Source: Oceanicola sp. 22II-s10i
GTDB lineage: Bacteria > Pseudomonadota > Alphaproteobacteria > Rhodobacterales > Rhodobacteraceae
Assembly (NCBI RefSeq): GCF_002210105.1
Contig: NZ_AQQU01000002.1
Location: forward strand, 310,001 to 374,000
Direction of reading: 5' to 3'
Length of the DNA stretch: 64,000 bases
The first letter of the stretch is position 1, and the number at the start of each line of letters is the position of its first letter. The notes below the pieces were generated by a model that was not told the DNA's origin, did not search any database, and worked only from the letters and a program-made list of their open reading frames with translations. Shown here one piece after another: positions 8,253 through 49,333 of the stretch. The translations under genes were made by a program, and so were the position numbers.

Positions 8253-8265
8253 GCACAGGTCCCCT

Positions 8266-33014: not shown

Positions 33015-34003
33015 ACGCGCCGACACCGAACATCGACAGCTTCCTCTCCATCGACAACCTGACGGTGGAATACCCGCTGAGCCGCCGCGCCAAGGTGCAT
33101 GCAGTGACGGAGTTCACCGCCCATGTGAAGCGCGGCGAGACGCTGGGCCTCGTGGGCGAGTCCGGCTGCGGCAAGTCCTCGGCCGCCCGCGCCGTGATGC
33201 AGCTGCCGCGTCCGACCTCCGGCTCGGTCCGTCTGGACGGGCAGGAGCTGACGACGCTGCGCGGCGCCGCGCTCCAGCATGCGCGGCGCAAGTTCCAGAT
33301 GATCTTCCAGGACCCGATCGCCTCGCTCAACCCGCGCCAGACGATCCGCGACATCGTGGCGGCGCCGCTCGAGATCGCAGGCATCGGCACGAAGGAGGAG
33401 CAGACCGCCAAGGTGGCCGAGATGCTGGACCTCGTCGGCATCAACCCGGACCAGGCGATGGAGCGCCGCCCGCACGAGTTTTCGGGCGGCCAGTGCCAGC
33501 GGATCTCGATCGCTCGCGCGCTGATCCTCTCGCCGGAACTGCTGGTCTGCGACGAGGCGGTCTCGGCGCTCGACGTTTCGGTTCAGGCGCAGGTGCTGAA
33601 CCTGCTGGAGAAGCTCAAGGGCGAACTGGGCCTGACCATGCTCTTCATCAGCCACGACCTCGCGGTGGTGAAGCACGTCTCGGACCGGGTCGCGGTGATG
33701 TACCTCGGCAAGCTCTGCGAACTGGCGGATGCGGAGACCATCTACCGCAAGCCGGTGCACCCCTACACGCGCACGCTGCTTGCGGCGGTCCCGGAACCCG
33801 ACCCCGACGCCCTGCGCGACCGGGTGGAGCTGATCCCCGGCGAACTGCCCTCGCCGGTGAACCCGCCGTCGGGCTGCCGCTTCCGCACCCGCTGCCCCTT
33901 CGCCACGGCACGCTGCACCGACGAGGTCCCCGCCATCCGCGAGATCGCGCCGGGCCACACGGTCGCCTGTCACCACCCGCTGATGGAGCACTCCGCAGCC
34001 TGA
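33011..34003 (+). CDS. ABC transporter ATPase, DppF/OppF type
   Basis: The 330-aa ATPase has Walker A GESGCGKSS, Q-loop IFQDPIASLNP, signature FSGGQCQRISIARALILSPELLVCDEAVSALDV and H-loop FISHDLAVV. The C-terminal domain has GCRFRTRCPFATARC and the final ACHHP. Note DEAVSALD in Walker B, normal for DppF-type proteins. Start ATG at 33011 overlaps the previous stop (ATGA). Last gene of the operon; a composite repeat begins 18 nt after its stop. Confidence 0.94.
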   Translation: MNAPTPNIDSFLSIDNLTVEYPLSRRAKVHAVTEFTAHVKRGETLGLVGESGCGKSSAARAVMQLPRPTSGSVRLDGQELTTLRGAALQHARRKFQMIFQDPIASLNPRQTIRDIVAAPLEIAGIGTKEEQTAKVAEMLDLVGINPDQAMERRPHEFSGGQCQRISIARALILSPELLVCDEAVSALDVSVQAQVLNLLEKLKGELGLTMLFISHDLAVVKHVSDRVAVMYLGKLCELADAETIYRKPVHPYTRTLLAAVPEPDPDALRDRVELIPGELPSPVNPPSGCRFRTRCPFATARCTDEVPAIREIAPGHTVACHHPLMEHSAA

Positions 34004-34020
34004 GGCCTGGTGCCTCCACC

Positions 34021-34193
34021 CGCTTCATCTGGCCGGATAAACTCCCGCCGGAGGCATGGGTCGGGAGGGGTCACACCCCTCCCGACCCATTTCGTTTGCG
34101 CCGCCTCCGGCGTCGCGCGGGTGTTGGACTGCGAGGGGATCGACCCCTCGCAGTCCAAGCCTCCGGCGGGAGTTTATCCGGCCAGATGAAGCG
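34021..34193. repeat. Composite inverted-repeat element: two 3'-end repeats head to head (copies C1 and C2)
   Basis: The outer arms 34021-34055 and 34159-34193 are perfect 35-bp inverted repeats. From the outside each reads CGCTTCATCTGGCC, GGATAAACT, CCCGCCGGAGGC. Inside are two further perfect hairpins: 34056-34090 (16-bp stem from ATGGGTCGGG, loop CAC) and 34124-34158 (15-bp stem from TTGGACTGCG, loop ATCGA), separated by 33 bp. The arms match the heads of copies A and B. C1 starts 18 nt after the DppF-type stop; C2 starts 5 nt after the stop of the leftward nitronate monooxygenase-like gene. No gene is encoded. The whole can fold as a three- or four-way structure. Confidence 0.92.
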
Positions 34194-34197
34194 GGGA

Positions 34198-35139
34198 TCA
34201 GTTTGCGTCGTACTCGGCGGCCATCTCGGCCACGATCTCGGCCACCGGGCGGGTGCCGGTGACGCCCGAGACGGAATGCCCGGCCGCCCAGATGTTCTTC
34301 CACCGTTTCGGACGCTCGGTGCCGCCCGCGCCGTACATCTCCGCCGCGCGGGCCTGGGTCATCGTCTCGTCGAGGTCGTCGAGGGTCAGGCCGGTGGCAA
34401 GGATCGCGGGCTTGAGGAAGTTCGCGTCGAGGCCGGTGAAGGTTTTGGTCGTCACCACGTCGTCGAGCGAGCAGTCGGAGAGCATCTGCTTGTAGCCGTC
34501 CTCGGCCATGCTTTCGTCCGAGGCGATGAAGCGGGTGCCCATGTAGGCGAGATCCGCCCCCAGCACCCGCGCCGCGCGGATCGAGGGGCCGTCGGTCAGC
34601 CCGCCCGACAGGATCACCGGCCCGTCGTAGAAGGACCGCACCGCGCGGACGAAGGCGAAGGGGTTGGCCCAGCCGGTCTGGCCGCCGGCGCCGGCCGACA
34701 GCAGGACGAGGCCATCGACCCCCGCCTCGACCGCGCGCTTGGCGTGGTGCAGCGTGGCGATGTCGGCGAAGACCAGCGTGCCGGCTTCCTTCAAGAGCGG
34801 CATCACCGGCTTGGGCGAGCCGACGGCGGTGATGACGATCTCGACGCCCGCATCGGCGATGATCTTCGCATCCTCCTGCACGCGCGGGTTGCGCATGATC
34901 AGGTTCGCGGCCCAGGGCGCGGCGTCGGGGGACAGCCCCGCGCGGATCTCGGCGACCCAGTCGACAAGCTGGTCGGTCGTGCGCGCGTTCACCGTCGGGA
35001 AGGACCCGATGACGCCCGCGTTGCAGCAGGCGGTCACCAGCGCCGGACCCGAGATGCGCAGCATCGGGGCCGAGACGACCGGAAGGCGCAGGCGGGACGT
35101 GATGGTGGCCGGCAGGCGGGAGGGGGGCAGGGTGCTCAT
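34198..35139 (-). CDS. Nitronate monooxygenase-type flavin oxidoreductase
   Basis: The 313-aa FMN TIM-barrel protein has LRLPVVSAPMLRISGPALVTACCNAGVIGSFPTVN at the N-terminus, then [39 protein letters not shown] and VILSGGLTDGPSIRAARVLGADLAYMGTRFIASDESMA. These fit the NMO / 2-nitropropane dioxygenase family. The same fold includes trans-enoyl reductases, so the activity could differ. The SDR gene lies 3 bp upstream on the same strand, so they are cotranscribed. Repeat copy C2 starts just past its stop. Confidence 0.87.
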   Translation of the reverse strand: MSTLPPSRLPATITSRLRLPVVSAPMLRISGPALVTACCNAGVIGSFPTVNARTTDQLVDWVAEIRAGLSPDAAPWAANLIMRNPRVQEDAKIIADAGVEIVITAVGSPKPVMPLLKEAGTLVFADIATLHHAKRAVEAGVDGLVLLSAGAGGQTGWANPFAFVRAVRSFYDGPVILSGGLTDGPSIRAARVLGADLAYMGTRFIASDESMAEDGYKQMLSDCSLDDVVTTKTFTGLDANFLKPAILATGLTLDDLDETMTQARAAEMYGAGGTERPKRWKNIWAAGHSVSGVTGTRPVAEIVAEMAAEYDAN

Positions 35140-35142
35140 GTC

Positions 35143-35940
35143 TCAGATCCCGAGGTGAAAGCCGCCGGAGACCGAGTAGGTCTGGCCGGTGATCCATTCG
35201 GACGCGTCCGAGGCGAGGAACAGCGCCATGTTGGCGATGTCCTGCGGCTCGCCCGGACGCCGCACGATGTAGCGCTGCATCATGCGCTTCAGCCGCTCCG
35301 GATCGGCCTCGTACTTCTTGCGCACGTCGGGGGTGGCGGTGAAGGCGATGGCGATGCAGTTCGCGGTGATCCCGTGACGCCCCAGCGTCCGCGCGCAGCC
35401 GCGCATGAAGCCCGCGGCGCCGGCCTTGGCGCCCGCGTAGATCTCGAGCCCCGAGTCGCCGAAATGCGCGGCCTCGGAGATGATGGTGATGATCCGCCCC
35501 GGCCCCTGCCGGTCGATCATGCCGGGGATCACAGCGGAGGTCGCGTTGATCACGCCGTAGAAGTTCACGCCGATGAAGCTGTTCCATGCCTCGGGGCCGG
35601 TGGTCCAGAACGGCTGGCGCGCGTCCTCGGTCGGGCTGACGCCGATGTTGCCCGCGTTGTTGACGAGGATGCCGATATTGCCGAAGGCCTCGGCCCCCCT
35701 GGCGGCCATCGCCTTCACCGCCTCCAGGTCCGTGACGTCCGCCTGCACCGCCAGTGCCTTGCCGCCGAGCGCGCGCACCTCCTCGGCCACGGCCTCGGCC
35801 CGGTCGAGGTGGTAGTCGTTGACCACCACGCCGGGGCAGCCGTGGCTGGCCAGATGCAGGGCGATCTGGCGGCCCACGCCCTGGCCCGCGCCGGTGATCA
35901 GGGCGGGGCGGCCGCCGAGGTTGAGAATGTCGTCGCTCAT
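35143..35940 (-). CDS. Short-chain dehydrogenase/reductase
   Basis: The 265-aa Rossmann enzyme has cofactor motif ALITGAGQGVGRQIALHLA, LVNNAGNIG, a catalytic serine in TIISEAAHFGDSG, and YAGAKAGAAGFMRGCARTL carrying the YxxxK pair (Y-AGA-K). The end SEWITGQTYSVSGGFHLGI is classical. In place of the common R/D after the first strand it has NDYHLDRAEA, hinting at NAD preference. First gene of an SDR-NMO operon divergent from tesB. The substrate is unknown; hydroxyacyl-CoA or alcohol oxidation are possible given the acyl-CoA neighbour. Confidence 0.9.
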   Translation of the reverse strand: MSDDILNLGGRPALITGAGQGVGRQIALHLASHGCPGVVVNDYHLDRAEAVAEEVRALGGKALAVQADVTDLEAVKAMAARGAEAFGNIGILVNNAGNIGVSPTEDARQPFWTTGPEAWNSFIGVNFYGVINATSAVIPGMIDRQGPGRIITIISEAAHFGDSGLEIYAGAKAGAAGFMRGCARTLGRHGITANCIAIAFTATPDVRKKYEADPERLKRMMQRYIVRRPGEPQDIANMALFLASDASEWITGQTYSVSGGFHLGI

Positions 35941-35984
35941 GGTGTCTCCTCCAGACGTGAGCCGCAGGATCGCGGTATTCTACC

Positions 35985-36003
35985 GAAGGGTCAATAACCC
36001 TTC
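35985..36003. promoter_or_regulatory. Inverted repeat between SDR and tesB (operator candidate)
   Basis: GAAGGGT, 5-nt spacer CAATA, ACCCTTC: perfect 7-bp arms in the 173-bp divergent region. The dyad size fits a dimeric regulator; no regulator is adjacent to assign it to. Confidence 0.45.
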
Positions 36004-36113
36004 CCACGCGTCTGTTGCCTGCTGCAAAGGCGTGAAATACCCTTGCAATCCTCGCGTCTTTGGCAGACGAAGCCTGCGTCCCGTGCTGCAGTGCAATATG
36101 ACGGAGCCTCCAG

Positions 36114-37004
36114 ATGAGCGACATCGCGAACCGCGCCCCCGAGGGTGACGACGAACTGACCCGGATCCTCGACGTCGAGCAGATCGAGCAGAACTTCTTT
36201 CGCGGCATCGCCACGCCCGAAGGCACCGGCCGCAGCTTTGGCGGGCAGGTGATCGGGCAGGCGCTGGCCGCCGCGACGCGGACGGTCGATCCGGACCGCG
36301 CGGCCCATTCGCTGCATGCCTATTTCATGCGCCCCGGCAACGCCGCCCAGCCGGTGCTCTACCGGATCGAGCGGGACCGCGATGGCGGCAGCTTCAACAC
36401 CCGGCGCGTGGTGGCGATCCAGAACGGCCAGCCGATCCTGAACATGGCCGCCTCCTACCAGGTGTCCGAGCCGGGCCTGCATCACCAGGAAGAGATGCCG
36501 GACGTCCCGCCGCCCGACGACCTGCTGAACGAACAGCAGTTGGCCGAGAAATACGCGGCGAACCTGCCCGAGGGCTATGGCAAGTTCCTCCGCAAGGAGC
36601 GTCCGATCGAGGTCCGCCCCTGCGAGCCGCGCCCGCCGTTCCAGGACGCGGGCAAGATCCTGCAGCAGCATTCGTGGATGCGTGCGCGGATCGCCATGCC
36701 AGACGATCCCGCGCTGCACCGCGCTGCGCTGGCCTATACCTCGGACATGGGGATCATCGGGTCCTCGCTGACCCGGAACGGGGTCAGCTTTGGCCGCCGC
36801 GACCTGATGGTGGCCAGCCTCGACCACGCGCTGTGGATGCATGACGACATGCGGATGGACGAATGGCTGCTCTATGTCATGGACAGCCCCTGGACCGGGA
36901 ATGCGCGCGGCTTTGCGCGCGGGCGCATCTTCACGCAGGACGGGCGGCTGGTCGCCAACGTGGCGCAGGAAGGGCTGATCCGTCAGATCACCAAGAAGGG
37001 CTGA
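36114..37004 (+). CDS. tesB: Acyl-CoA thioesterase II
   Basis: The 296-aa double-hotdog thioesterase hydrolyses medium and long acyl-CoA. It has EQNFFRGIATPEGTGRSFGGQVIGQALAAATRTV, SLHAYFMRPGNAAQPVLYRIERDRDGGSFNTRRVVAIQNGQPI in the first hotdog, and a second with LAYTSDMGIIGSSL...ASLDHALWMHDDMRMDEWLLYVMDSPWTGNARGFARG, containing the catalytic D-S/T-Q type residues. AGCCTCCAG upstream is only a fair ribosome site. It converges on the methyltransferase gene with 6 bp between stops. Confidence 0.93.
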   Translation: MSDIANRAPEGDDELTRILDVEQIEQNFFRGIATPEGTGRSFGGQVIGQALAAATRTVDPDRAAHSLHAYFMRPGNAAQPVLYRIERDRDGGSFNTRRVVAIQNGQPILNMAASYQVSEPGLHHQEEMPDVPPPDDLLNEQQLAEKYAANLPEGYGKFLRKERPIEVRPCEPRPPFQDAGKILQQHSWMRARIAMPDDPALHRAALAYTSDMGIIGSSLTRNGVSFGRRDLMVASLDHALWMHDDMRMDEWLLYVMDSPWTGNARGFARGRIFTQDGRLVANVAQEGLIRQITKKG

Positions 37005-37010
37005 ACCCGC

Positions 37011-37829
37011 TCAGGCCGGCGTCGCGGAAATCAGCGCGACCGGCACGGGGACGGTGTAGCCATCGCCGTCGGCGTGCTTTTCAGCGACCGTTGCCGCGAT
37101 GGCGTCGGCGACCTTTTGTATCGTCTCGCTGGTCTGGCTGCGGATCAGCATCCCCGCGCCCACGGTCGCGGTCAGGAAAATCTCGAACAGCTCGCCGGGA
37201 CTGTCGATGACCCAGGCGTGGTCGAGCGTTTCGTGTCCGGTCATCTCCAGTCCCGCCGCCTCCAGCATGCCCTTGGCCTGACCGGCATCCGCGAAGGCGA
37301 AGAGGTCGGGCTGCGGCGGCGCGGCGGAGAAGTCCGCATGGGTCTTCAGCGCGCCGAAGACGGCGGCGAAAGCGGGGGAGGCGGCGGGACCGACCCACGT
37401 GGCCATGGCAAAACCGCCGCCCGGCTTCAGGACGCGGCGGATTTCCGAAAGCGCTTTGGGCTGGTCGGGAATATGCATCATGCCGAAATTGCAGAGCACC
37501 CGGTCGAAGGACGCATCGGCGAAGGGCATCGCCATCGCGTCGCCTTCCACGATCTCGGCCTCGGGTGCGGCCCGGCGCGCCAGTGCCAGCATCTCGGGCG
37601 AGAAGTCCATCCCGGTGATCGCGGCGCCTGTCGCCGCAAGCTGTGCGGTCAGCGTGCCCTGTCCGCAGCACAGGTCCAGCACGGTATCCGTTGGCTGGAC
37701 GAACCGGCGGGCCATCCCGGTGCCGACCGCATCGGTGATCGGCGCGAAATGCCGGACGTAGGCTTCAACGATTCCGGGGTCCGACCATCCGTCCTTTTCC
37801 CGCGAACCAAACTCGGCAAACTGGGTCAC
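37011..37829 (-). CDS. Class I SAM-dependent methyltransferase
   Basis: The 272-aa protein has motif I VLDLCCGQGTLTAQLAATGAAITGMDFSPEMLALARR, then AEIVEGDAMAMPFADASFDRVLCNFGMMHI and LSEIRRVLKPGGGFAMATWVGPA. The arrangement is that of UbiE/Methyltransf_11 enzymes acting on small molecules. No membrane segment. It is on the same strand as the P5CR-like and hydrolase genes to its right but separated by 85 bp. The substrate is unknown. Confidence 0.82.
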   Translation of the reverse strand: MTQFAEFGSREKDGWSDPGIVEAYVRHFAPITDAVGTGMARRFVQPTDTVLDLCCGQGTLTAQLAATGAAITGMDFSPEMLALARRAAPEAEIVEGDAMAMPFADASFDRVLCNFGMMHIPDQPKALSEIRRVLKPGGGFAMATWVGPAASPAFAAVFGALKTHADFSAAPPQPDLFAFADAGQAKGMLEAAGLEMTGHETLDHAWVIDSPGELFEIFLTATVGAGMLIRSQTSETIQKVADAIAATVAEKHADGDGYTVPVPVALISATPA

Positions 37830-37914
37830 ATCACACCCCCATGGTTCCGTCCGGGTCAGGCTATCACGGATTGCGCCTTTCGCGGTCCGGAAAGTGGCCG
37901 CCGGGCGCCGCGGG

Positions 37915-38706
37915 CTATCCCGCGATGCCCCGCGTGCGCGCGACGGCGGCGTCGAGGCCCTTGGCGATGGCCTCGGCGATGTCGGTCTCCTGCATGGCCA
38001 GCAGGCCCGCGGCCGTGGTGCCCGCGTAGTCGATCATCTGGCGGACGTGGGTGTCGGGGGCGGGGCCATCGGCCATCATCTGCCCCGCGGAAAGGAAAAG
38101 CTGGCGGACGGCGCGTTCGGCCACCTCGGGCGCGACGCCCCGGTCCGTGGCGTAGCCCTGCATGCAGGCGGCGAAAAAGGCGACGAAGCCGGGGACGGGG
38201 CCTGTCATGGCGGTGAAGAGGTCGATCTGCGCCTCGTCCGGCACCTCGTCGGTCGTGCCGATGGCCGACAACAGGTGGCGGATCATCGTCCTGTCGTCCT
38301 CGGTGGCGCCGGAGGCGGCGAAGGGAGAATAGGCCAGCCGCAGCGCGGCGGCGGGGCTGGACATGGCGCGGACGACGCGGGTGGTGCCGGTCAATGCCGC
38401 GATGCGGTCGAGCGTGACGCCCGCCATGACCGAGGCGACAAGCCTGTCGGGGGCGCTGATCCCGATCCCTCCGGCCAGCGCCGGGGGGACCGAGAGCAGG
38501 ATCACGTCGCAGGCGTCGGCCAGCGCCTGACTGTCGGCGGTGACGGTAACGTCCGGCCAGTCCTCGAACCCTGCGCGCGACCCGCTCCGGTTGGATATCC
38601 AGAGCCGATCCGGAGAAACCGCGCCGGACGACAGCCAGCCCGTCGCGATGGCGTGGCCGAGCATGCCCGACCCGCCGACGATCCCGACCGTCGCCCCGGT
38701 GCTCAT
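37915..38706 (-). CDS. Pyrroline-5-carboxylate reductase-like NAD(P)-binding protein
   Basis: The 263-aa protein has VGIVGGSGMLGHAIATGWLSSG (Rossmann), LWISNRSGSRAGF, ACDVILLSVPPALA and the C-terminal helical domain with AMTGPVPGFVAFFAACMQGYATDRG and a final MIDYAGTTAAGLLAMQE. This matches ProC-like folds, where GSGPAY and PGG-TTA motifs bind the substrate; here they are TGPVPGF and AGTTAAGL, so it may not make proline. Its start overlaps the alpha/beta hydrolase stop (ATGA), implying a joint pathway with that enzyme rather than a stand-alone proline gene. Confidence 0.78.
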   Translation of the reverse strand: MSTGATVGIVGGSGMLGHAIATGWLSSGAVSPDRLWISNRSGSRAGFEDWPDVTVTADSQALADACDVILLSVPPALAGGIGISAPDRLVASVMAGVTLDRIAALTGTTRVVRAMSSPAAALRLAYSPFAASGATEDDRTMIRHLLSAIGTTDEVPDEAQIDLFTAMTGPVPGFVAFFAACMQGYATDRGVAPEVAERAVRQLFLSAGQMMADGPAPDTHVRQMIDYAGTTAAGLLAMQETDIAEAIAKGLDAAVARTRGIAG

Positions 38707-39605
38707 GCCGGGGCGGGCGCCTTGAGCGCGGCCAGTTCGATCGCGTCGATGACCCGGTCGAAGATCTGCGGCGGGATGTTGTGCCCCATGCCGTCGATCT
38801 CGACCAGCTCAGCGCCCGGCGTGTTCTCGGCCGTGTCGCGGCCACCGGCCACGGGCACCAGCGGGTCCTGCACGCCGTGGATCACCACCGTCGGCACGTC
38901 GAGCTTCTGCAGGTGAGGGCGGCGGTCGTAGGTGCCGAGGATCGCGCCGTATTGCCGCGAGAAGCCGGTCGGGTGGAAGGAGCGTTCGTAGTCGCTGACG
39001 ATATTGGCGCGGATCACGTCATCGGGCAGCGGCCACGACGGGCTGCCGATCACGCGGGCGGTGTTCATGCTGGCGGCGACGAAGCCGTCGAAATCCTTGG
39101 CCGGATCGGGCTTGGGCGTGGTCAGCGCCGCCATCGCCTCGGGCGTGCCGCCGGGCAGGTCGGGGTTGCCGGTGTTTGACATGATCGAGGTGAGCGAGAG
39201 CGTCTTCTCCGGATGCTCGATCGCCACGAGCTGCGCGATCATCCCGCCCATGGACGAGCCGACGATATGCGCGGCGGGGATCCCGAGGTGATCCAGCAAC
39301 CCGGCCACGTCGCCCGCCATGTCAGACAGCTGGTAGGGCAGGTCGGCCTTTGTGCCCGCCTTCTTGGCCGCCGTGGCCGCCTTGAAGTCGGGGATGCCGG
39401 CCTCGGTGAATTTCTGGCTCAGCCCGATGTCGCGGTTGTCGAGGCGGATCACCCGGTAACCGCGCGCCTGAAGCTTTTCGACGAAAGGCGCGGGATAGCG
39501 GGTCATCTGGGTGCCCACGCCCGAGATTAGAACGATCGGTTTGCCGTCCTGCGGCCCGTGATCCTCGTAGTAGATGGTAATTCCGTTGACCTTGGCCTCG
39601 GGCAT
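38703..39605 (-). CDS. Alpha/beta hydrolase
   Basis: The 300-aa hydrolase starts MPEAKVNGITIYYEDHGPQDGKPIVLISG. The nucleophile elbow is GSSMGGMIAQLVAIEHP (GxSxGG), the acid is in VIHGVQDPLVPVAGG and the histidine in IDGMGHNIP. The N-terminal GTQMTRYP region replaces the usual HG oxyanion motif. AGGGAGG precedes the ATG at 39605. It is cotranscribed with the P5CR-like gene and divergent from the Baeyer-Villiger monooxygenase gene. An esterase or lactonase acting on that monooxygenase's ester product is a natural inference. Confidence 0.88.
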   Translation of the reverse strand: MPEAKVNGITIYYEDHGPQDGKPIVLISGVGTQMTRYPAPFVEKLQARGYRVIRLDNRDIGLSQKFTEAGIPDFKAATAAKKAGTKADLPYQLSDMAGDVAGLLDHLGIPAAHIVGSSMGGMIAQLVAIEHPEKTLSLTSIMSNTGNPDLPGGTPEAMAALTTPKPDPAKDFDGFVAASMNTARVIGSPSWPLPDDVIRANIVSDYERSFHPTGFSRQYGAILGTYDRRPHLQKLDVPTVVIHGVQDPLVPVAGGRDTAENTPGAELVEIDGMGHNIPPQIFDRVIDAIELAALKAPAPA

Positions 39606-39751
39606 GCGCGTGTCCTCCCTTCGCGTTTCCTCCACGTTATGGCGGGTTGGAAAGGATGAAAAGCGCATGTTTCGCTGCGCTGCAACGTGGAAGGGTGGTT
39701 CCCATGAGGGATCGCAGGGGTTATGCAGGGACAGGTTTTCGAAGATCGGGT

Positions 39752-41281
39752 ATGCAGATGGCGCAGGAAGTTCTGGACGTTCTCATCATCGGTGCGGGCC
39801 TGTCGGGCATCGGCGTGGCGCGGTATCTCAAGCATCGCTGCCCGGACAAGAGTTTTGCCATCCTCGAACGCCGCAAGGCCATCGGCGGCACATGGGACCT
39901 GTTCCGCTATCCCGGCATTCGCTCGGACAGTGACATGCACACGATGGGCTATGCGTTCAAACCGTGGAAACACGCCAAGGCGATTTCCGACGGCCACCTG
40001 ATCCGCGAATATGTGGAGGAGACGGCGGAGGAGAACGGGCTGACCCCGCTGATCCGATTCGAACATCGGGTATTGAGCGCGGTCTACGACAGCGCCGACA
40101 ACCTCTGGACCCTGACCTGCGCCACGCCGGAGGGCGAGACGGTGATCCGCACCCGCTTCCTGTTCATGGCGGCGGGCTACTACAAATACGACCGGGGCTA
40201 CCTGCCTGACTTCGCCGGGTACGAGGATTTCACCGGCACGATCATCCACCCCCAGCACTGGCCGCAGGACTACGACCACGCGGGCAGGCGGATCGCGATC
40301 ATCGGCTCGGGCGCGACGGCGGTGACGCTGCTGCCGACGCTGGCCGAAACGGCCGCGCATGTGGTGCAGGTCCAGCGCTCGCCCACCTATATCGCCACGC
40401 GCCCCTCTGTCGATGTCTGGGGGAACCGGCTGAAACGGTTCTTTCCGGGCAGGACCGGCTATTCGCTGGCCCGCTGGCGGATCATCTTCCGCGGTGCGCT
40501 GATGCGGCGCAAGTTTGCCAAGGACATCAAGGCGGCGCGGCGGATGCTGATCGGTCTGGTCGGCAAGCAGCTCGGCGGCAAGGTGCCCGACTGGCAGACC
40601 CATTTCACGCCGAAATACATGCCATGGCAGCAGCGCCTGTGCCTCGTGCCCGACGGCGACATGTTCGCGGCGCTGCGCTCCGGCAAGGCCGAGATCGTGA
40701 CGGGCGATATCGAGCGGTTCACCCCGACCGGCATCCTGATGACCGACGGACGGCAGGTGGAGGTCGACACGATCGTCACCGCGACGGGGCTGGACCTCGA
40801 CCATTTCGGCGGGATGCGGATGGAGGTCGACGGCCAGCGCGTCGAGCCGGGCAGGCAGCTTATGTACAAGTCGATGATGTACGCCAACATCCCGAACCTC
40901 GTGTATTTCCGGGGCTATACGAATGCCTCTTGGACGCTGAAGGTCGACCTGGTGGCCGAATTCGCCTGCCGCCTGCTCAAGTTCATGGACCGCAACGGCT
41001 ATGCGCAGGTCCGCGCGCCCGCCACGTCCGGGGATTTCGCCAAAATCGACACCTCGACGCCCTTCACCAGCGGCTACGTCCTGCGCGCCAAGGCCCGCTC
41101 GCCCAAGAGCGGGACCGAGGCGCCTTGGCTGGCCAAGCAGGATTACATGCACGACCGAAAGGTGCTGCGGCGGGGCAGGATCGACGACGGCACCCTGAAA
41201 TTCGCGACCAAGGCGGAGAGGGTGGTGTTTCCGCCCGAGCAGCAGGCCGGCAGCGCGCCTGCGGAACTGGCGGCCGAGTGA
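39752..41281 (+). CDS. Baeyer-Villiger-type flavin monooxygenase
   Basis: The 509-aa enzyme has FAD motif DVLIIGAGLSGIGVARYL, the type I BVMO fingerprint FTGTIIHPQHW (F160-x-G-x3-H-x3-W170), NADPH motif RIAIIGSGATAVTLLPTLAE and a C-terminal TATGLDLDHFGG. It should insert one oxygen of O2 into a ketone next to the carbonyl, giving an ester or lactone. The start could be at 39752 or 39758; a longer start at 39704 has a better ribosome site (GGAAGGG) but extends beyond the family N-terminus. Neighbours are a hydrolase, SDR and TetR regulator. Stop is 4 bp from the convergent tetR-like stop. Confidence 0.9.
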   Translation: MQMAQEVLDVLIIGAGLSGIGVARYLKHRCPDKSFAILERRKAIGGTWDLFRYPGIRSDSDMHTMGYAFKPWKHAKAISDGHLIREYVEETAEENGLTPLIRFEHRVLSAVYDSADNLWTLTCATPEGETVIRTRFLFMAAGYYKYDRGYLPDFAGYEDFTGTIIHPQHWPQDYDHAGRRIAIIGSGATAVTLLPTLAETAAHVVQVQRSPTYIATRPSVDVWGNRLKRFFPGRTGYSLARWRIIFRGALMRRKFAKDIKAARRMLIGLVGKQLGGKVPDWQTHFTPKYMPWQQRLCLVPDGDMFAALRSGKAEIVTGDIERFTPTGILMTDGRQVEVDTIVTATGLDLDHFGGMRMEVDGQRVEPGRQLMYKSMMYANIPNLVYFRGYTNASWTLKVDLVAEFACRLLKFMDRNGYAQVRAPATSGDFAKIDTSTPFTSGYVLRAKARSPKSGTEAPWLAKQDYMHDRKVLRRGRIDDGTLKFATKAERVVFPPEQQAGSAPAELAAE

Positions 41282-41285
41282 CCGC

Positions 41286-42548
41286 TCAGAGCGGCCGGAA
41301 CAGCCCGTGTGCGATGGAATGGGAATAGAGCCGGATCGCCGTCGCGCGGTCCGCACGCTCCTCGGCCCAGAGCCGCATGTCGCTGGCCGAGTTCATAAGC
41401 CCCGTGACCCATTGCGCCGCGATCAGCGGATCGACCGGGCGGATGGAGCCTTCGGCGATCCCGTCCGAGATCATGCCGGCAAAGCGCATCGCGATCCGGT
41501 CGGAGCGGTCCAGCACGATCCGTCTGAGGTCGGCGGGCAGGGCCTGCAGCGCGGTGATGCGGACCAGCGGGAATTCCGCGTCGAACTGGATCGACAGCAC
41601 GTCGCCGATGCAGGCCGCGATCCTGTCGGCATGGCTGCCCGGCAGGTTGATCGCCCGCCGCTGCGCCTGGCTGAATCGCCCGTAGCCGCGGTGGAAACAT
41701 TCAAGCACCAGATCATCCTTGCCCTGCAAGTGGTGGTAAAAGCTGCCTTTCGAGACGTTCAGCTCACCCGCGATCCGCTCGACGGACGCCCCGCGATAGC
41801 CGCGTTCGTTGATCAGCCGGGTGGCCGCGTGCAGGTAGGTTTCGGGCGTGATGTCTGCACCTTCGGGGTGGTCCGGCACCTCGGCCACAGGGGCGCGCAC
41901 CGTCCAGTCGGCCCCGTCGGGCAATATTCCCCGCGCGAACAGGTCCATCAGCCGCTGGCCCGCCCGTTCGTAGTCGCCCACGGAATACTTCGTCAGCCAG
42001 GCTCGCGACCAGTAGAGCGCATCCACCATCATGTGGGCGCGCGCAAAGTTCAGCCCCGGCCCGTCGCCCGTGGGGCTGCGGTCAAAGAACTGCGCCGCGG
42101 GCTTCAGCACCCTGACCCGGTAATCCTCGAGCAGATCGGTGCGCTGCGGCTCCTCCAGCGCGCGCAGGTCGGACAGCAGGGCGGTCGGCCGGTCCTGTCC
42201 CAGCCGGGTGGCGCCGGCCAGTTCCAGATACCGCCGCACGAAACTCTTGACCCGCAGCTCCGCCGTCGGTTCCTGCCCGGCGCTGTCAATGATCTCGCCG
42301 AGCTGTTCGATGGTGCGCTCGATGGTGGCCGCCGCCAGCATCTCCTTGCGCTTGAAGTAATAGGTGACCGAGGTGGTGTTCAGCCCGACCGCTTCGGCAA
42401 CCGAGACGAAAGTCAGACCCTTGAGCCCGCGTTCGTTGATGATCACCGCCGCCGCGTCGAGGATCGTATCCCGCTTGCGCCGGAACCTGTCGGAGGTATC
42501 GGAAGCGTCGTCCTGCGCCTGAGGCAGTTGTTTGGCCGTCGTATCCAT
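41286..42548 (-). CDS. TetR-family regulator with two tandem HTH domains
   Basis: The 420-aa protein is twice the usual TetR length. HTH 1 is at about residues 25-72 (RDTILDAAAVIINERGLKGLTFVSVAEAVGLNTTSVTYYFKRKEML) and HTH 2 at about 235-282 (YLHAATRLINERGYRGASVERIAGELNVSKGSFYHHLQGKDDL). Each is followed by a helical ligand-binding-type region. This is two TetR modules fused in one chain, and the halves are divergent in sequence. It sits between the BVMO gene (convergent) and an SDR gene (divergent, 81 bp), which are its likely targets. Confidence 0.9.
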   Translation of the reverse strand: MDTTAKQLPQAQDDASDTSDRFRRKRDTILDAAAVIINERGLKGLTFVSVAEAVGLNTTSVTYYFKRKEMLAAATIERTIEQLGEIIDSAGQEPTAELRVKSFVRRYLELAGATRLGQDRPTALLSDLRALEEPQRTDLLEDYRVRVLKPAAQFFDRSPTGDGPGLNFARAHMMVDALYWSRAWLTKYSVGDYERAGQRLMDLFARGILPDGADWTVRAPVAEVPDHPEGADITPETYLHAATRLINERGYRGASVERIAGELNVSKGSFYHHLQGKDDLVLECFHRGYGRFSQAQRRAINLPGSHADRIAACIGDVLSIQFDAEFPLVRITALQALPADLRRIVLDRSDRIAMRFAGMISDGIAEGSIRPVDPLIAAQWVTGLMNSASDMRLWAEERADRATAIRLYSHSIAHGLFRPL

Positions 42549-42629
42549 CGCTTAGTCTTTACCAATCGCCGGGCCGCATGTCATCGGCAGGTTGCAGCAT
42601 AAATCGAGGAAGAAAGGGAGGGAATTCCC

Positions 42630-43481
42630 ATGACCGGGATAAACATAGATCTGAGCGGGCAGGGCGCCGTCGTCACCGGCGCCGCATCGGGCATCGGGCG
42701 CGCCACGGCGCGGATGCTGGCCGAGGCCGGCGCCGGGGTGCTGTGCTGCGACATGGCCGAGGCGGTGGAGGCGGTCGCCGACGAGATCCGAGAGGCTGGC
42801 GGCCGGGCCGAGGCGATGCGCATGGACGCCGGATCGGAGGCGGATGTCGCCGCCGCTGTCGCAAAGGCCGAAGAGCTGTTCGGCGGGCTCGACATCTTCC
42901 ACGCCAACGCCGGTATCACCGGCGGGCCGGGATCGCTGTTCGAGGTCTCGCCCGAGATCTGGACCGAGGTGCTGCGGGTGAACCTGATCGGCCCGTGGCT
43001 GGCCGTGAAACACGCCACGCCCGCGATGCAGAAGCGCGGCGGCGGGTCGATCGTGCTGACCGCCTCGGTCGCCGGGATGCGGGCGAATGCAGGCCCGGCG
43101 CAGTATTCGGCGTCCAAGGCCGGGGTCATCAACCTCGCGCAGACGGCATCCTATCAGCTGGCCGGGACCGGGGTGCGCGTCAATGCCATCTGTCCCGGCC
43201 TGATCGAGACCGGCATGACCCGTCCGATCTACGACTATGCCAAGGCCACCGGCACGGCGCTGCGGATCGGGTCCATGACCCCGATGAAGCGCGGCGGCGA
43301 ACCTGAGGAGATCGCCTCGACCGTGCTCTGGCTGTCCTCGCCGCTGGCCAGCTACGTGAACGGGCAGGCGATCCCGGTCTGTGGCGGCCTGTCCGCCAGC
43401 CATCCCTACGGCCCGCGCCCGGACCGCGAAAAGATGGAACAGGCGATCGCCGAGATGAAGGCGCGCGACGCCACGGGCTGA
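42630..43481 (+). CDS. Short-chain dehydrogenase/reductase
   Basis: The 283-aa SDR has AVVTGAASGIGRATARMLAEAGAGVLCCDMAEA (NAD-type aspartate after strand 2), FHANAGITG in place of the usual NNAG, a catalytic serine in IVLTASVAGMRAN and YSASKAGVINLAQ (YxxxK). The tail VCGGLSASHPYGPR is typical. Strong GGGAGGG site upstream. It is divergent from the tandem TetR gene and probably controlled by it. A secondary alcohol dehydrogenase feeding the BVMO is a reasonable guess. Confidence 0.9.
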   Translation: MTGINIDLSGQGAVVTGAASGIGRATARMLAEAGAGVLCCDMAEAVEAVADEIREAGGRAEAMRMDAGSEADVAAAVAKAEELFGGLDIFHANAGITGGPGSLFEVSPEIWTEVLRVNLIGPWLAVKHATPAMQKRGGGSIVLTASVAGMRANAGPAQYSASKAGVINLAQTASYQLAGTGVRVNAICPGLIETGMTRPIYDYAKATGTALRIGSMTPMKRGGEPEEIASTVLWLSSPLASYVNGQAIPVCGGLSASHPYGPRPDREKMEQAIAEMKARDATG

Positions 43482-43558
43482 ACCGCTTGCCGGACTCACC
43501 GGTGCGGCCGTATCCTTGCCTCAGCGCCGATACGGCCGCGCCATTTCCGGAGGCTTCG

Positions 43559-44557
43559 ATGCCCGTCCAGCGCCTGCGATTCCTGTGTCTTGCCATCACC
43601 GTCGCACTCTCGGGACTGGCCGCCATGCCCGCGGCCCATGCTCAGACCCGCAGCAGCGACATCCGATTCCAGTCGGGCACCAGCCAGGCCACCGTCACCG
43701 GCCGCGTCTCGGGGCGGCAGATCGACGCCTACCGGATCGGCGCGCGGCGGGGGCAGGAGATCGACCTGAACCTCACCTCGCGCAACACCGCGCTCCGCTT
43801 CAGCATCGAGGCGCCCGACGGCAGGGGGCGGGCCATGACGCTGGACGGCGGTCGCGCGTCCTCGGTCAGCCGGTACACAGGGGTCCTTCCGGCGACAGGC
43901 ACCTATGTCGTCCGGGTTTTCCTTGACCGCGATGCAGCGCGGCGGAACGAAACCGCCCGCTACAGCCTGACCGTCGGCATCGACAGCGCGCGACCGCCGA
44001 GCCCGCCGCCGCCGCAGGGCGGGACCGTCACCTACATGCGTGTCACCGGCCTGCGCGCGGGGGACACGCTGAACGTGCGACAGGGTCCGTCCACCGCGAA
44101 CCCTGTGCTCTTCACGCTGGATCAGGGCGACGTGGTCGCCAGCCTCGGGTGCCGGTCCTTCGGCAGCGGATCGGCCTGGTGCGAGGTCTACCGCCCCGAC
44201 CGTCCGCGCAGCGTCGGCTGGGCCTCGTCCCGCTACCTTGCCCCCGCCGCGCGCCCGGACCGCCCCGGCGGGCCCGATCCCGACCGCCCGGTGTCCGGCA
44301 CGCTGGACTGCCGGTTCGTGATCGGGATCATCAACCAGACCTGTCGCTATTCCGCACGGCGCATCGCCCGCGGTGTGCACGAGATCACGGTGCAATTGCC
44401 CGGCCGGACCCGGACCATCCGCATGGAGGGCACACGCGCCGTGTCGTCCAACGGAAACGGGCCTGTTTTCAGTGTCCTGCGCGGCGATGTTGTCGATGTT
44501 TCCATCGGCGCGCTGGAGCTTTACCGCGTTCCGCTGAGCGCGCTTGGCGGGCGCTAG
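43559..44557 (+). CDS. Exported protein with pre-peptidase-type and SH3-like domains
   Basis: The 332-aa precursor has a signal peptide (1-28, ...AAHAQ). Residues ~35-140 form a beta-rich domain (ATVTGRVSGRQIDAYRIGARRGQEIDLNLTSRNTALRFSIEAPDG...GTYVVRVFLDRDAAR) like bacterial pre-peptidase C-terminal domains. A PPSPPPPQ linker leads to an SH3b-type domain (GDTLNVRQGPSTANPVLFTLDQGDVVASLGCR...GWASSRYL). A C-terminal region with paired cysteines (DCRFVIGIINQTCRYSARR) follows. CCGGAGG precedes the ATG at 43559. It is likely periplasmic or wall-associated; no catalytic residues are recognised. Confidence 0.78.
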   Translation: MPVQRLRFLCLAITVALSGLAAMPAAHAQTRSSDIRFQSGTSQATVTGRVSGRQIDAYRIGARRGQEIDLNLTSRNTALRFSIEAPDGRGRAMTLDGGRASSVSRYTGVLPATGTYVVRVFLDRDAARRNETARYSLTVGIDSARPPSPPPPQGGTVTYMRVTGLRAGDTLNVRQGPSTANPVLFTLDQGDVVASLGCRSFGSGSAWCEVYRPDRPRSVGWASSRYLAPAARPDRPGGPDPDRPVSGTLDCRFVIGIINQTCRYSARRIARGVHEITVQLPGRTRTIRMEGTRAVSSNGNGPVFSVLRGDVVDVSIGALELYRVPLSALGGR

Positions 44558-44670
44558 GACACGGACGCAAGGAACATTCGCCCCCGTGCCCTTGCAGCCC
44601 CGGATATGCGTGACTAAGACTCCTTTAGGAACTGATCGGTAGGGATCAGGTGGCAAAAGGGCAGGTCGCG

Positions 44671-45303
44671 ATGAGAGATCCGGCAGAATTCTACATGAAC
44701 AACCTCGTTCCGATGGTCGTCGAACAGACCAGCCGGGGCGAACGGGCGTATGACATCTTCTCGCGGCTGCTGAAGGAGCGGATCATCTTCCTCTCCGGTC
44801 CGGTGCACGACGGGATGTCCTCGCTGATCGTGGCGCAGCTGCTGCACCTCGAGGCGGAAAATCCGTCGAAAGAGATCAGCATGTACATCAACAGCCCCGG
44901 CGGCGTGGTGACCTCGGGCCTGTCGATCTACGACACGATGCAGTACATCAAGCCCAAGGTCTCGACCCTCGTGATCGGGCAGGCGGCCTCGATGGGCTCG
45001 CTCCTGCTGACGGCGGGCGAAAAGGGCATGCGCTTCTCGCTGCCGAACAGCCGGGTGATGGTGCACCAGCCCTCGGGCGGCTATCAGGGTCAGGCGACGG
45101 ACATCATGATCCACGCCGAAGAGACGCTGAAGCTGAAAAAACGGCTTAACGAGATTTACGTGAAGCACACCGGTCAGGACCTCGAAACGGTCGAACGGGC
45201 GCTGGAGCGTGACAACTTCATGTCCCCGGAAGATGCCAAGGCATGGGGACTTATCGACGAAATCGTCGAAAACCGGATCAAACCGGGCGACGGCGACAGC
45301 TGA
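44671..45303 (+). CDS. clpP: ATP-dependent Clp protease proteolytic subunit
   Basis: The 210-aa serine protease has its triad S107 ([11 protein letters not shown]), H132 (VMVHQPSGG) and D181 ([16 protein letters not shown]). N-terminal [35 protein letters not shown] and [19 protein letters not shown] are standard. It forms tetradecamers that degrade substrates unfolded by ClpX. The ATG at 44671 matches the family start; a GTG 21 nt upstream would add seven residues. clpX follows 141 bp on, with a hairpin between them. Confidence 0.96.
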
Positions 45304-45308
45304 TGCCG

Positions 45309-45325
45309 CCCGGATCACATCCGGG
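45309..45325 (+). terminator. Hairpin after clpP
   Basis: CCCGGAT, loop CAC, ATCCGGG, then after 9 nt a TTTTT run. Probably a partial terminator, since a TTGACA -35-like box for clpX begins at 45338. Confidence 0.55.
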
Positions 45326-45444
45326 ACAGGGGCATTTTTGACATTGTGGTGACAGGGGGCCTGTCCTAGTCTGTACGGCAACACAGGCAAAGGCGGGCCC
45401 CGGCCCCTAACCGACAATGCCCGCAAACGGGCGATAGGTGCGAG

Positions 45445-46710
45445 ATGGCGAACAACTCGGGTGGCGACAGCAAGAACACGCTCTACTGCAGTTTCTGCGG
45501 CAAGAGCCAGCACGAGGTGCGCAAGCTGATTGCAGGCCCCACGGTGTTCATCTGCGACGAATGCGTCGAACTCTGCATGGACATCATCCGGGAAGAAACG
45601 AAATCGACCGGGCTGAAAAGCTCGGACGGTGTACCGACCCCGCAGGACATCTGCGGCGTGCTGGACGACTACGTGATCGGCCAGATGAAGGCCAAGCGCG
45701 TCCTGTCGGTCGCGGTGCACAACCACTACAAGCGTCTGAACCACTCGTCGAAATCCGGCGATATCGAACTGGCGAAGTCGAACATCCTGCTGATCGGCCC
45801 CACGGGCTGCGGCAAGACCCTGCTGGCACAGACGCTGGCGCGGATCCTCGACGTGCCGTTCACGATGGCCGACGCGACCACGCTGACCGAGGCCGGGTAT
45901 GTTGGCGAGGACGTGGAGAACATCATCCTCAAGCTGCTGCAGGCGTCGGAATACAACGTCGAACGCGCGCAGCGCGGCATCGTCTATATCGACGAGGTCG
46001 ACAAGATCACCCGCAAGTCGGAAAACCCCTCGATCACCCGCGACGTGTCGGGCGAGGGCGTTCAGCAGGCGCTGCTCAAGCTGATGGAAGGCACCGTCGC
46101 CTCCGTCCCGCCGCAGGGCGGGCGCAAGCATCCGCAGCAGGAATTCCTGCAGGTGGACACGACCAACATCCTGTTCATCTGTGGCGGCGCCTTCGCGGGC
46201 CTCGACCGGATCATCGCGCAGCGCGGCAAGGGCTCGGCCATGGGCTTCGGCGCCGATGTGCGGGACAATGACGACCGGGGCGTGGGCGAGCTGTTCAAGG
46301 AACTCGAACCCGAGGACCTGCTGAAATTCGGCCTGATCCCGGAATTCGTCGGCCGCCTGCCGGTTCTGGCGACGCTCGAGGATCTGGACGAAGAGGCGCT
46401 GGTCACCATCCTGACCCAGCCCAAGAACGCGCTGGTAAAGCAATACCAGCGCCTGTTCGAACTGGAAGACGCGCAGCTGACCTTTACCGACGACGCGCTG
46501 AACGCGATCGCCAAGCGGGCCATCGCCCGCAAGACCGGCGCACGCGGCCTGCGGTCGATCCTCGAGGATATCCTGCTGGACACCATGTTCGACCTGCCGG
46601 GTATGGAGAATGTGGAAGAGGTCGTGGTGAACGAAGAGGCCGTGACCTCGGAAGCCAAGCCGCTGATGATCTACGCCGACGCCAAGAAGGAAGAGGCGAG
46701 CGCGGGCTGA
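45445..46710 (+). CDS. clpX: ATP-dependent Clp protease ATP-binding subunit
   Basis: The 421-aa AAA+ unfoldase has the N-terminal zinc-binding domain (C15, C18, C37, C40 in YCSFCGKSQ...[10 protein letters not shown]). Walker A is [15 protein letters not shown], Walker [11 protein letters not shown], the pore loop GYVGEDVEN, the RKHPQQEF segment and sensor 2 [15 protein letters not shown]. The ClpP-docking IGF loop is conserved as [16 protein letters not shown]. Partner of ClpP. Separated from it by a hairpin and a possible promoter; a strong terminator follows. Confidence 0.97.
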
Positions 46711-46735
46711 AGCCTGCGCGCAACGTGACACCCGA

Positions 46736-46763
46736 CGGGCCCGCGCAGCACTGCGCGGGCCCG
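46736..46763 (+). terminator. Terminator after clpX
   Basis: CGGGCCCGCGCA / TGCGCGGGCCCG, perfect 12-bp stem with loop GCAC, followed by CGTCGTTT. Confidence 0.72.
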
Positions 46764-46859
46764 CGTCGTTTCCGGATCCACCCCGCACGGAAGCCTCTGG
46801 CTTTCGGCGCGAAAACCGGGTCTAGCTGCGGCGCATCCAACCAGTGAGAGACAACCGAG

Positions 46860-47243
46860 ATGACACACAGACGCATTCATTCCGGCAGCGCCTTCGAGCC
46901 CAAGATGGCCTATTGCCGCGCCGTCGTGACGGCGGATGGCTGGGTTCACGTCGCGGGCACCGTGGGGCAGGGCGCCACCGTAGTCGACCAGTGCCGCGCG
47001 GCGCTGGACACCATCGGCAAGGCCCTGGCCGAAGCTGGCGCGCAGTGGTCCGATGTCGTCCGCGTGCACTACATCCTGCCCGACCGGACCGAGTTCGAGC
47101 CCTGCTGGCCGGTGCTGGCCGAGGTTTTCGGCGCACACCCCCCGGCGGCCACGATGTTCGAGGCCGGCCTCATCGACCCGGTCTACCGGATCGAGATCGA
47201 GGTGACGGCAAAAATCGCCGGCTCGGACGAACCCGGCCGCTGA
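46860..47243 (+). CDS. RidA/YjgF/YER057c-family protein
   Basis: The 127-aa protein belongs to the Rid superfamily that hydrolyses reactive enamine/imine intermediates. Signatures: [64 protein letters not shown] and [25 protein letters not shown]. The position equivalent to the catalytic arginine of RidA (R in PxRxT/x) is replaced in PPAATMFEA, so imine deamination may be absent and it fits a Rid subgroup other than RidA. It stands alone, 59 bp before the NDUFA12-like gene. Confidence 0.85.
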
Positions 47244-47302
47244 GGGCTGGACCTCGCCCCCCCGATACGCCATATCGGAGGGGCAATTCCCGGAGGTGTC
47301 CC

Positions 47303-47686
47303 ATGGGGCTTCTGAACACTCTTCTGCGCGCCGCGACATGGTGGAACGGCTCGACCCTCAACACCCAGCTCTACACCGCCCGCAAGGGCGTGAAGGTGGG
47401 CGAGGATGACGAGGGCAACATCTTCTACCGGTCCAAGGACGGCAAGCGTCGCTGGGTGATCTTCAACGGCGAGGCCGAGGCGTCGCGCGTCAGCGCCGAC
47501 TGGCACGGCTGGCTGCACCACACGTTCGACGAGGTGCCGACCGACAAGCCGCTGACCCACAAGGCTTGGGAAAAGCCGCACAAGGAAAACCTGACGGGCA
47601 CGCCGCTGGCCTATGCACCCGCGGGCTCGATCCGCCGCGAAGCCCCGGCCGAACGCCGCGACTACGAGGCGTGGAGCCCCGAATAA
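47303..47686 (+). CDS. NADH:ubiquinone oxidoreductase accessory subunit, NDUFA12 (B17.2) family
   Basis: The 127-aa protein starts [54 protein letters not shown] and contains [22 protein letters not shown] and [23 protein letters not shown]. These are the signatures of the mitochondrial/alphaproteobacterial complex I supernumerary subunit. GGAGG precedes the ATG. mlaD starts 13 bp after its stop. This subunit occurs in alphaproteobacteria and supports the taxonomic call. Confidence 0.92.
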
Positions 47687-47699
47687 GGGGCCGCAGCTT

Positions 47700-48152
47700 A
47701 TGGCAGAGAATACCACCGAGATCATCGTCGGCGGCGCCGTTCTGGCGCTGGCCGTGGGGTTCGGCATCTACTCCGCGCAGATCGCGGGGCTGTCGTCGGG
47801 CACGACGGGCTATCCGCTGACCGCCGCCTTCCGTTCGGCCGAGGGGATCGGCGTGGGGACGGACGTGCGGCTGGCCGGCGTCAAGGTCGGCACGGTGACG
47901 GGCGTGGACCTGAACCCCGACACCTACCGCGCCATCACCACCTTCAGCGTGGACGAGGCGATCCGCATTCCTGACGACAGCGCCGTCATCGTGGCGAGCG
48001 AGGGGCTGCTCGGCGGGAACTTCCTCGAACTGTCGCCGGGCGGATCGCCGTTCTACCTGGAGGCCGGGGACGAGGTTCTGGACACGCAGGGCGCGGTCAG
48101 CCTGATCTCGCTGCTGCTGAAATTCGTCTCCTCGGGCGGGTCGTCGGAATGA
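47700..48152 (+). CDS. mlaD: Outer membrane lipid asymmetry protein MlaD (MCE domain)
   Basis: The 150-aa protein has one N-terminal anchor helix (IIVGGAVLALAVGFGIYSAQIAG) and a single MCE domain: LTAAFRSAEGIGVGTDVRLAGVKVGTVTGVDLNPDTYRAITTFSVDE and IPDDSAVIVASEGLLGGNFLELSPGG. It forms a periplasm-facing hexamer carrying phospholipids between membranes. The other mla genes are not adjacent in this window. Start by position 47700; a weak ribosome site. The stop overlaps the DUF2155 start (ATGA). Confidence 0.93.
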   Translation: MAENTTEIIVGGAVLALAVGFGIYSAQIAGLSSGTTGYPLTAAFRSAEGIGVGTDVRLAGVKVGTVTGVDLNPDTYRAITTFSVDEAIRIPDDSAVIVASEGLLGGNFLELSPGGSPFYLEAGDEVLDTQGAVSLISLLLKFVSSGGSSE

Positions 48153-48550
48153 GACACCTGGCCGCCTTCCTGATCGCGCTGCTGCTGGCGCTGCCCGTCG
48201 CCGCACAGGTGCAGGACGAGATCGAAGGCGCGACCACCGAGGAGCTGCGCACCTCGACGGGCCTTGGCGCGCGACTCAAGGCGCTGGACAAGATCAACGG
48301 GCAGGTGTCCGAGTTCGACATGATCGCGGGCGGGTCGGTGCAGATCGGCAAGCTGGTCGTGGAACTGCGCGAATGCCGCTACCCCGAGGACAACCCCGAG
48401 GGCGAGGCCTTTGCCTATCTGGTGATCTCCGAACCCTCCAAGGGCACCGACCCGGTGTTCAGCGGCTGGATGATCGCCTCGGCCCCCGCGCTGAACGCGC
48501 TGGACCATTTCCGCTATGACATCTGGGTCCTGCGCTGCAGCACGCTCTGA
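48149..48550 (+). CDS. DUF2155 exported protein
   Basis: The 133-aa precursor has a signal peptide (1-19, ...LPVAAQ). The body LGARLKALDKINGQVSEFDMIAGGSVQIGKLVVELRECRYPEDNPEGEAFAYLVISEP and FSGWMIASAPALNALDHFRYDIWVLRCS is the DUF2155 pattern, common in alphaproteobacteria beside aat. Two cysteines, near the middle and the C-terminus, may form a disulfide in the periplasm. Its end overlaps the convergent aat gene by 37 bp. The function is unknown. Confidence 0.86.
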   Translation: MRHLAAFLIALLLALPVAAQVQDEIEGATTEELRTSTGLGARLKALDKINGQVSEFDMIAGGSVQIGKLVVELRECRYPEDNPEGEAFAYLVISEPSKGTDPVFSGWMIASAPALNALDHFRYDIWVLRCSTL

Positions 48551-49164: not shown

Positions 49165-49278
49165 GGCATTGTCCGGGGTCAGGATGCCATGAACATCAGG
49201 GGAAGGCGAGGGGGCTCGCCGGGCCCTTGCGCGCCCGTCTCGCGCTGTGCGCCGCGACCGCGGGAAGGGGGGGAGGGG

Positions 49279-49323
49279 CGGGGGGATGTCTGCCCCCCGA
49301 AGGTATTTCAGACCAGAAGAAGC
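49279..49323 (-). repeat. 3'-end repeat element, copy B (head plus hairpin)
   Basis: On the minus strand it starts 11 nt after the accC stop. The head is GCTTCTTCTGGTC (49323-49311), then TGAAATACCTT, then a perfect 7-bp hairpin CGGGGGG / CCCCCCG with a 7-nt loop (49279-49299). The first 13 bases are identical to copy A; the stem differs from A and from both copies at 34.0 kb. Confidence 0.8.
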
Positions 49324-49333
49324 CGGGGCCCCG

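Follow-up and report, generated by a model that had tools for sequence, protein, structure and literature searches.

What are the short repeats that lie just past several stop codons in this window, a stretch of 64,000 nucleotides from the genome of Oceanicola sp. 22II-s10i (contig NZ_AQQU01000002.1, positions 310,001 to 374,000), and does their direction follow that of the neighboring genes? The original prediction described four units, each with a conserved head, an A-rich box, a C/G-rich box, and a perfect hairpin of 7 to 16 bp, all placed shortly after a stop codon and oriented with the gene upstream. A weight-matrix scan of the window (threshold of ≥10 bits) returned exactly these four units, against a mean of 0.0 in five shuffles, and the head, A-rich box, and G/C box were present in all of them where predicted. 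Unit 1 (subfamily B; 8258 to 8319, forward strand) follows an Lrp/AsnC gene in a convergent gap and is built from a conserved lead (8258 to 8266), the head CTTCTTCTGGTC (8267 to 8278), a free dinucleotide (8279 to 8280), the A-box (8281 to 8289), a G-run (8290 to 8294), and a 9-bp hairpin (8299 to 8319). Unit 2 (subfamily A, CCG core; 34021 to 34090, forward strand), with an oligopeptide ABC ATPase gene upstream, comprises a head (34023 to 34034), free GG (34035 to 34036), an A-box (34037 to 34045), the core CGCCGGAGGC (34046 to 34055), and a 16-bp hairpin (34056 to 34090). It is faced by unit 3 (subfamily A, CCG core; 34124 to 34193, reverse strand), which comes after a nitronate monooxygenase (NMO) gene and has its head at 34191 to 34180, free GG, its A-box at 34177 to 34169, its core at 34168 to 34159, and a 15-bp hairpin at 34158 to 34124. 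A third module (34091 to 34123, reverse strand), consisting of GCGCGACG, a loop, and CGGCGCAA, lies between the two and is present in several units; by eye, sequence related to it is also seen near the NMO gene in loci L253 and L254. Unit 4 (subfamily B; 49279 to 49323, reverse strand), in the gap between the biotin carboxylase (accC) and leucyl/phenylalanyl-tRNA-protein transferase genes, has its head at 49322 to 49311, free TG, its A-box at 49308 to 49300, and a 7-bp hairpin at 49299 to 49279. The Lrp/AsnC, oligopeptide ABC ATPase, nitronate monooxygenase, and biotin carboxylase products that flank units 1 to 4 are Pfam assignments.

The four hairpins (9, 16, 15, and 7 bp) thus have the predicted lengths, and the closeness to stop codons was borne out, the CTTC of the head beginning 14, 19, 6, and 11 nt after the stop in units 1 to 4, respectively. 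The stems had been said to differ completely; units 1 and 4 are, however, both of the G-run type. Fold z-scores were −3.3, −6.7, and −6.4 for units 1 to 3 and −0.25, no better than shuffles, for unit 4. As a whole, therefore, the observation of the four units was partly confirmed. A fifth exact head (45679 to 45690, reverse strand) was set aside as a chance match because it lies inside a called gene and is devoid of an A-box. At the Rfam gathering score, only tRNA was found in the window and nothing in loci L002, L146, L156, and L004, while the stretch from 33980 to 34230 gave only matches below gathering, the best of which placed a plant miRNA model across the facing pair; a known RNA family was accordingly rejected.

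The four units form, as supposed, a repeat family whose head is conserved in sequence, and this family proved larger than the window. Exact copies of the head number 91 in the genome (39 forward and 52 reverse), against 12 for a reversed control, and a longer pattern that tolerates as many as three mismatches raises the number to 183 copies, against 3 in the control. One match near a contig end was dropped, and 85 of the 90 exact heads analyzed came with an A-box and were taken as the family, leaving out the 5 that had none. The common anatomy is a 12-nt head, two free bases, an A-box, a core (CCGCCGGAGGC or GGGGG), and optional hairpins. Given that the units of this genome were collected by the exact spelling CTTCWTCTGGYC and those at the named loci by a similar pattern, the invariance of their heads, also in the same-locus comparisons below, is by construction; among the parts that the search did not force, the A-box was found in 37 of 37 subfamily B units (after dropping the 5 of 90 heads without one) and the TTCA of the head in 61 of 61 units of genomes G153 and G162. 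Head and A-box spellings are linked in subfamilies, CTTCATCTGGCC with ATAAACTCC in subfamily A, CTTCTTCTGGTC with AAATACTT in B (GGTT in the variant B'), CTTCATCTTGCC with AAATATGCC in C, and CTTCCTCTGGCC with AAATACT in D. The cores CCGCCGGAGGC and GGGGG...GGGGGC..GCCCCC each combine with several heads, so that the family is a mosaic.

Near-identical copies also occur, with seven pairs of subfamily B units at different loci having 58 to 59 of 60 nt in common. L023 compared with L148, L152, and L160, and L011 compared with L030, are identical at 58 to 59 of 60 nt and yet differ in the free dinucleotide, as if this were a junction between two modules. Many of the mismatched heads (among the 100 of 183 places listed, from which these details come) are shared subfamily variants. 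Private head variants were few in the stretches fetched around exact units, which, being centered on such units, are no random sample of decayed copies. Most units are single, and the neighbor pairs within 250 nt of the units of this genome, relaxed heads included, comprise nine facing or back-to-back and five tandem arrangements. In L019, L025, and L179, two heads lie back to back, 18 to 19 nt apart, and together make a single long palindrome centered on the GATCCC lead. An exact intergenic head at 1501 to 1512 on the reverse strand of L002 (G000:C1:132696-132707) lacks both A-box and core; the hairpin after it is unrelated, and there is no Rfam match at the gathering score.

Do the hairpins behave as a structure under selection? 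A perfect stem of ≥7 bp followed 69 of the 85 units of this genome (17% of shuffles), 54 of 100 named units (14% of shuffles), and 16 of 31 in G153 (10% of shuffles), with no excess in G162 (3 of 30, against 8% of shuffles); window gene ends without a unit had such a stem in 8 of 27 cases. Each unit had been predicted to carry a perfect hairpin, which holds for the four window units, but family-wide the hairpin is optional, as G162 and G153 indicate. Covariation was strong around the nine copies of GGGCTCGATGCCC in the genome, all of which lie nine bases after the GGCC that closes a unit's core. These nine hairpins have one loop in common and different 9-bp stems, with 79 of 81 positions paired (G-U counted), while arms exchanged between the units paired at a mean of only 4.8 of 9 positions. 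In a pair count, 98.3% of the cells were paired, and changes on both sides numbered 31, compared with 10.1 in shuffles. The stems are therefore kept by compensatory change, a stronger result than the matching arms originally put forward, and the nine hairpins amount to a clean natural experiment on selection for structure. Length is matched too in the GGG core, in which the two G-runs and the C-run were 4/4/4, 5/5/5, or 6/6/6 in 85 of 110 parsed units. Head plus core alone, in turn, gave no consistent fold on either strand, so that what is conserved in the head seems to be its sequence; an RNA hairpin of head and core, attractive in subfamily A, was rejected as inconsistent across spellings and cores (group mean z of ca. 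−1.4 to +0.8).

With gene calls from a home-made codon-usage caller, 82 of the 85 units were intergenic and 3 lay inside called genes. The intergenic units fell into 32 convergent, 22 tandem sense, 25 tandem antisense, and 3 divergent gaps, which places 79 of the 82 beside one or more gene 3' ends. At the named loci, the gaps of 60 to 600 nt that hold a unit (56 tandem, 27 convergent, 3 divergent) differ in kind from those without one (173 tandem, 29 convergent, 84 divergent; chi-square P = 3e-9), and divergent gaps are avoided. Given that stem-loops in general are described as preferring convergent gaps (PMC1590033), the convergent part of this rule is not peculiar to the family. By eye, some units seem to supply the stop codon itself from the TGATCC of their lead. 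In L180 (1800 to 2313), a unit lies between a stop codon and the tmRNA gene; a link to tRNA neighbors was discarded, with only two stable RNA genes in 79 loci of this genome, one of them that tmRNA.

The orientation half of the predicted rule fared differently from its gene-end half. A sense gene lies upstream of 54 of the 82 intergenic units, and 31 of 82 are both in sense and within 30 nt of a stop. In tandem gaps, in which direction is informative, sense and antisense were nearly equal (22 against 25). Pooling 253 units from this, sister, and named genomes (six named matches near locus ends dropped), tandem gaps held 56 sense and 89 antisense units over all cores. GGG cores made up 31 and 33 of these, CCG cores 21 and 48 (P = 0.0016, an antisense lean), and the remaining ones 4 and 8; outside tandem gaps, 82 units were convergent and 9 divergent, 13 fell within called genes, and 4 lay at an edge. 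That all four window units point with their gene says little, since three of them are in convergent gaps, where either direction is "with" one gene. The place of the units is the gene end, and their direction is not that of the gene. Of the two expectations on which the original prediction was to stand or fall, orientation relative to stop codons was thus refuted, and covariation of the arms was upheld; its interpretation is partly supported overall and, in the sense-oriented version, largely refuted for orientation.

Canonical terminators, one of the roles that had been suggested, were not supported by folds or by a hairpin-plus-T scan. Over positions 33500 to 50500, which hold units 2 to 4 and leave out unit 1, the scan found five sites, against a mean of 7.2 in shuffles, with unit 2 alone among the units passing, so that across these 17 kb U-tract terminators were no commoner than in shuffles. 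Read from the opposite strand, the A-box becomes UAUUU and follows a mini-stem of ca. 4 bp, in some cores only. For Rhodobacter sphaeroides, the accessible part of one report gives no motif upstream of PNPase-dependent 3' ends (PMC7866481).

How widespread are these repeats, and how are they spelled elsewhere? Of 149 genomes sampled from the order, 6 contain the exact head plus A-box, all of them in one family, and 93, covering 48 of 73 genera, contain the A-box plus CCG core, for which the control gave 0 matches. The carriers among the matches listed include Jannaschia, Ruegeria, Roseovarius, Salipiger, Shimia, Loktanella, and Limimaricola. The scan of named genomes gave at least 106 loci, with titles for 80 among the matches listed, five of which (L036, L043, L058, L076, and L087) belong to other groups and are matches without either core. 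Within the genus, 11 of 22 genomes (this one included) matched a pattern allowing either spelling. In G153, the spelling was TCTTGCC nn AAATACTCC in 29 of 29 matches, the pattern leaving G or T free; it was TCTTGC(C/T) nn AAATATGCC in 9 of 9 in G163 (7 of them inside fetched stretches) and TCTGGC(C/T) nn AAATACTCC in 13 of 13 in G150, with G153, G162, and G163 having been chosen by a CCG-core pattern. Spelling is thus nearly uniform within a genome and differs between genomes, in agreement with a putative role of the head as a recognition tag. G153, G154, G161, and G162 nevertheless have one spelling in common, and the genome studied here mixes several. In G139, eleven AAATACTCCCGCCGGAGGC copies among the matches listed lie on contig C8 between 62 and 76230, a high local density, out of 45 in that genome.

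In twelve same-locus comparisons, spread over eight loci at which the genes on both sides match, each genome showed its usual spelling; units of this genome and the named ones had been collected by exact TCTGG heads, while G153, G162, and G163 were free at G or T. Orientation was kept in 11 of 12, and the core type differed in 4 of 12. At one locus (L146, L275, and L308), all three species have AG as free bases but differ in head and A-box, suggesting a change of spelling in place, although only tentatively, since free bases differ even between near-identical copies. The NMO gene was found in 4 of 22 genomes, this one included. At accC, steady conservation was counted against, only 2 of 21 orthologues (those of this genome and G159) carrying a unit by eye.

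Building on the observed family, with its anatomy, position at gene ends, compensated stems, some loci in common with sister species, and differences in spelling, we give about even chances to the explanation that the units are modular REP/BIME-like repeats of Rhodobacteraceae at gene 3' ends, with hairpins that protect or end transcripts and a head recognized in trans. The role of the hairpins is probable by analogy, REP elements of Escherichia coli being reported to protect or end transcripts (PMC5082802, PMC8049555) and REP effects in general to include termination, mRNA half-life, and ribosomes near stops (PMC8049555, PMC12306157, PMC5082802). Given that the units lie at gene 3' ends in either orientation, they should be transcribed within 3' untranslated regions. 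There, the hairpins would act like REP stem-loops, stopping 3'-5' exonucleases, and would help transcription to end from either side, with no fixed orientation needed; recognition in trans, by a host factor or by a copying enzyme outside those known, would be what preserves the head as primary sequence. Against this explanation stand the antisense lean of CCG-core units, which an orientation-free role does not predict, the missing hairpin excess in G162, the scarcity of private head variants, unlike an ageing mobile family, the rarity of the unit among accC orthologues, and the lack of a PF01797 transposase in the 22 genomes of the genus. A more specific proposal, that a Rhodobacteraceae factor recognizes head plus A-box and that, as its preference drifts, about a hundred sites follow in place while the hairpin arms change together, is speculative and rather unlikely.

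Some of the same evidence could be read in other ways. Purely mobile, selfish REP- or MITE-like repeats, moved by an enzyme outside those known and with no host role, their gene-end bias reflecting purging from genes and promoters, are a possible though somewhat doubtful alternative, to which the near-identical copies at different loci, the linked head and A-box changes of the subfamilies, the avoidance of divergent gaps, and the placement within a few nucleotides of stops, some seemingly supplied by the TGATCC lead, all lend weight. The same repeats, however, have few private head variants, a constant A-box beside variable free bases, which argues for constraint in place, and no PF01797 transposase, and sister species retain some of the units at matching loci. 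Sites for a sequence-specific DNA-binding protein, either a roadblock terminator or a chromosome-organizing mark, with a recognition that drifts and so separates the spellings, would account for a head and A-box kept as primary sequence around a 2-nt free spacer, for head plus core lacking a consistent fold on either strand, for the absence of a sense bias, and for uniform spelling as in G153. Such a protein would not need long compensated hairpins, and both the several spellings at once in this genome and the common one of G153, G154, G161, and G162 speak against it, making it unlikely. Still less probable are sense-oriented terminators, processing sites, or small-RNA sources of the upstream gene, as originally favored: all four window units do begin 6 to 19 nt after a stop and most intergenic units have a sense gene upstream, but tandem gaps of the genome show no sense bias, CCG cores lean antisense, and a T-rich tail is confined to unit 2 among units 2 to 4. 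Hardly credible are DNA uptake sequences of the Neisseriaceae kind, with species dialects. Uptake sequences form inverted pairs at gene ends and are far more numerous and common inside genes; the family resembles them in facing pairs at gene ends and as a dispersed motif with species-specific spelling, but differs, by that general yardstick, in its low copy number (183, with up to three mismatches) and in being all but confined to intergenic DNA (3 of 85 in genes).

Under either the host-factor or the mobile reading, a motif spelled differently between species at the same loci is directly testable. Heads kept in place by a host factor would offer a handle on transcript ends in a high-GC group, and mobile ones would represent a REP-like family lacking the known copying enzyme. 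No description of the family was found in the literature searched, in which the motif strings matched no paper and whose coverage excludes most subscription journals.

Among known systems, intrinsic terminators likewise have a GC-rich hairpin after a stop codon, but the T-rich tail is confined to unit 2 among units 2 to 4. Also comparable are Br-REP1 and Br-REP2 of Bradyrhizobium, Rhodopseudomonas, and relatives, which the accessible part of their description (PMC5082802) presents as alphaproteobacterial 3'-UTR repeats, transcribed and differing between related genera; their sequence is another one, and neither a head spelled by species nor hairpins with a shared loop figure in that part. The REP, BIME, and REPIN elements of enterobacteria and Pseudomonas are likewise short, palindromic, and extragenic, and occur at gene ends in copy numbers from tens to hundreds, both singly and as facing or back-to-back pairs, with a mosaic build. 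Unlike them, the family described here has as its constant part a head and A-box without a consistent fold, with hypervariable, compensated stems, and most of its units are single, with few private variants. A RAYT-driven REPIN was rejected, and REPIN membership is not claimed, since PF01797 was matched in none of the 22 genomes of the genus, this one included, at an E value of 0.001 (the control was positive in 5 of 14). In the broad sense of a short palindromic extragenic repeat in many copies, the units are REP elements.
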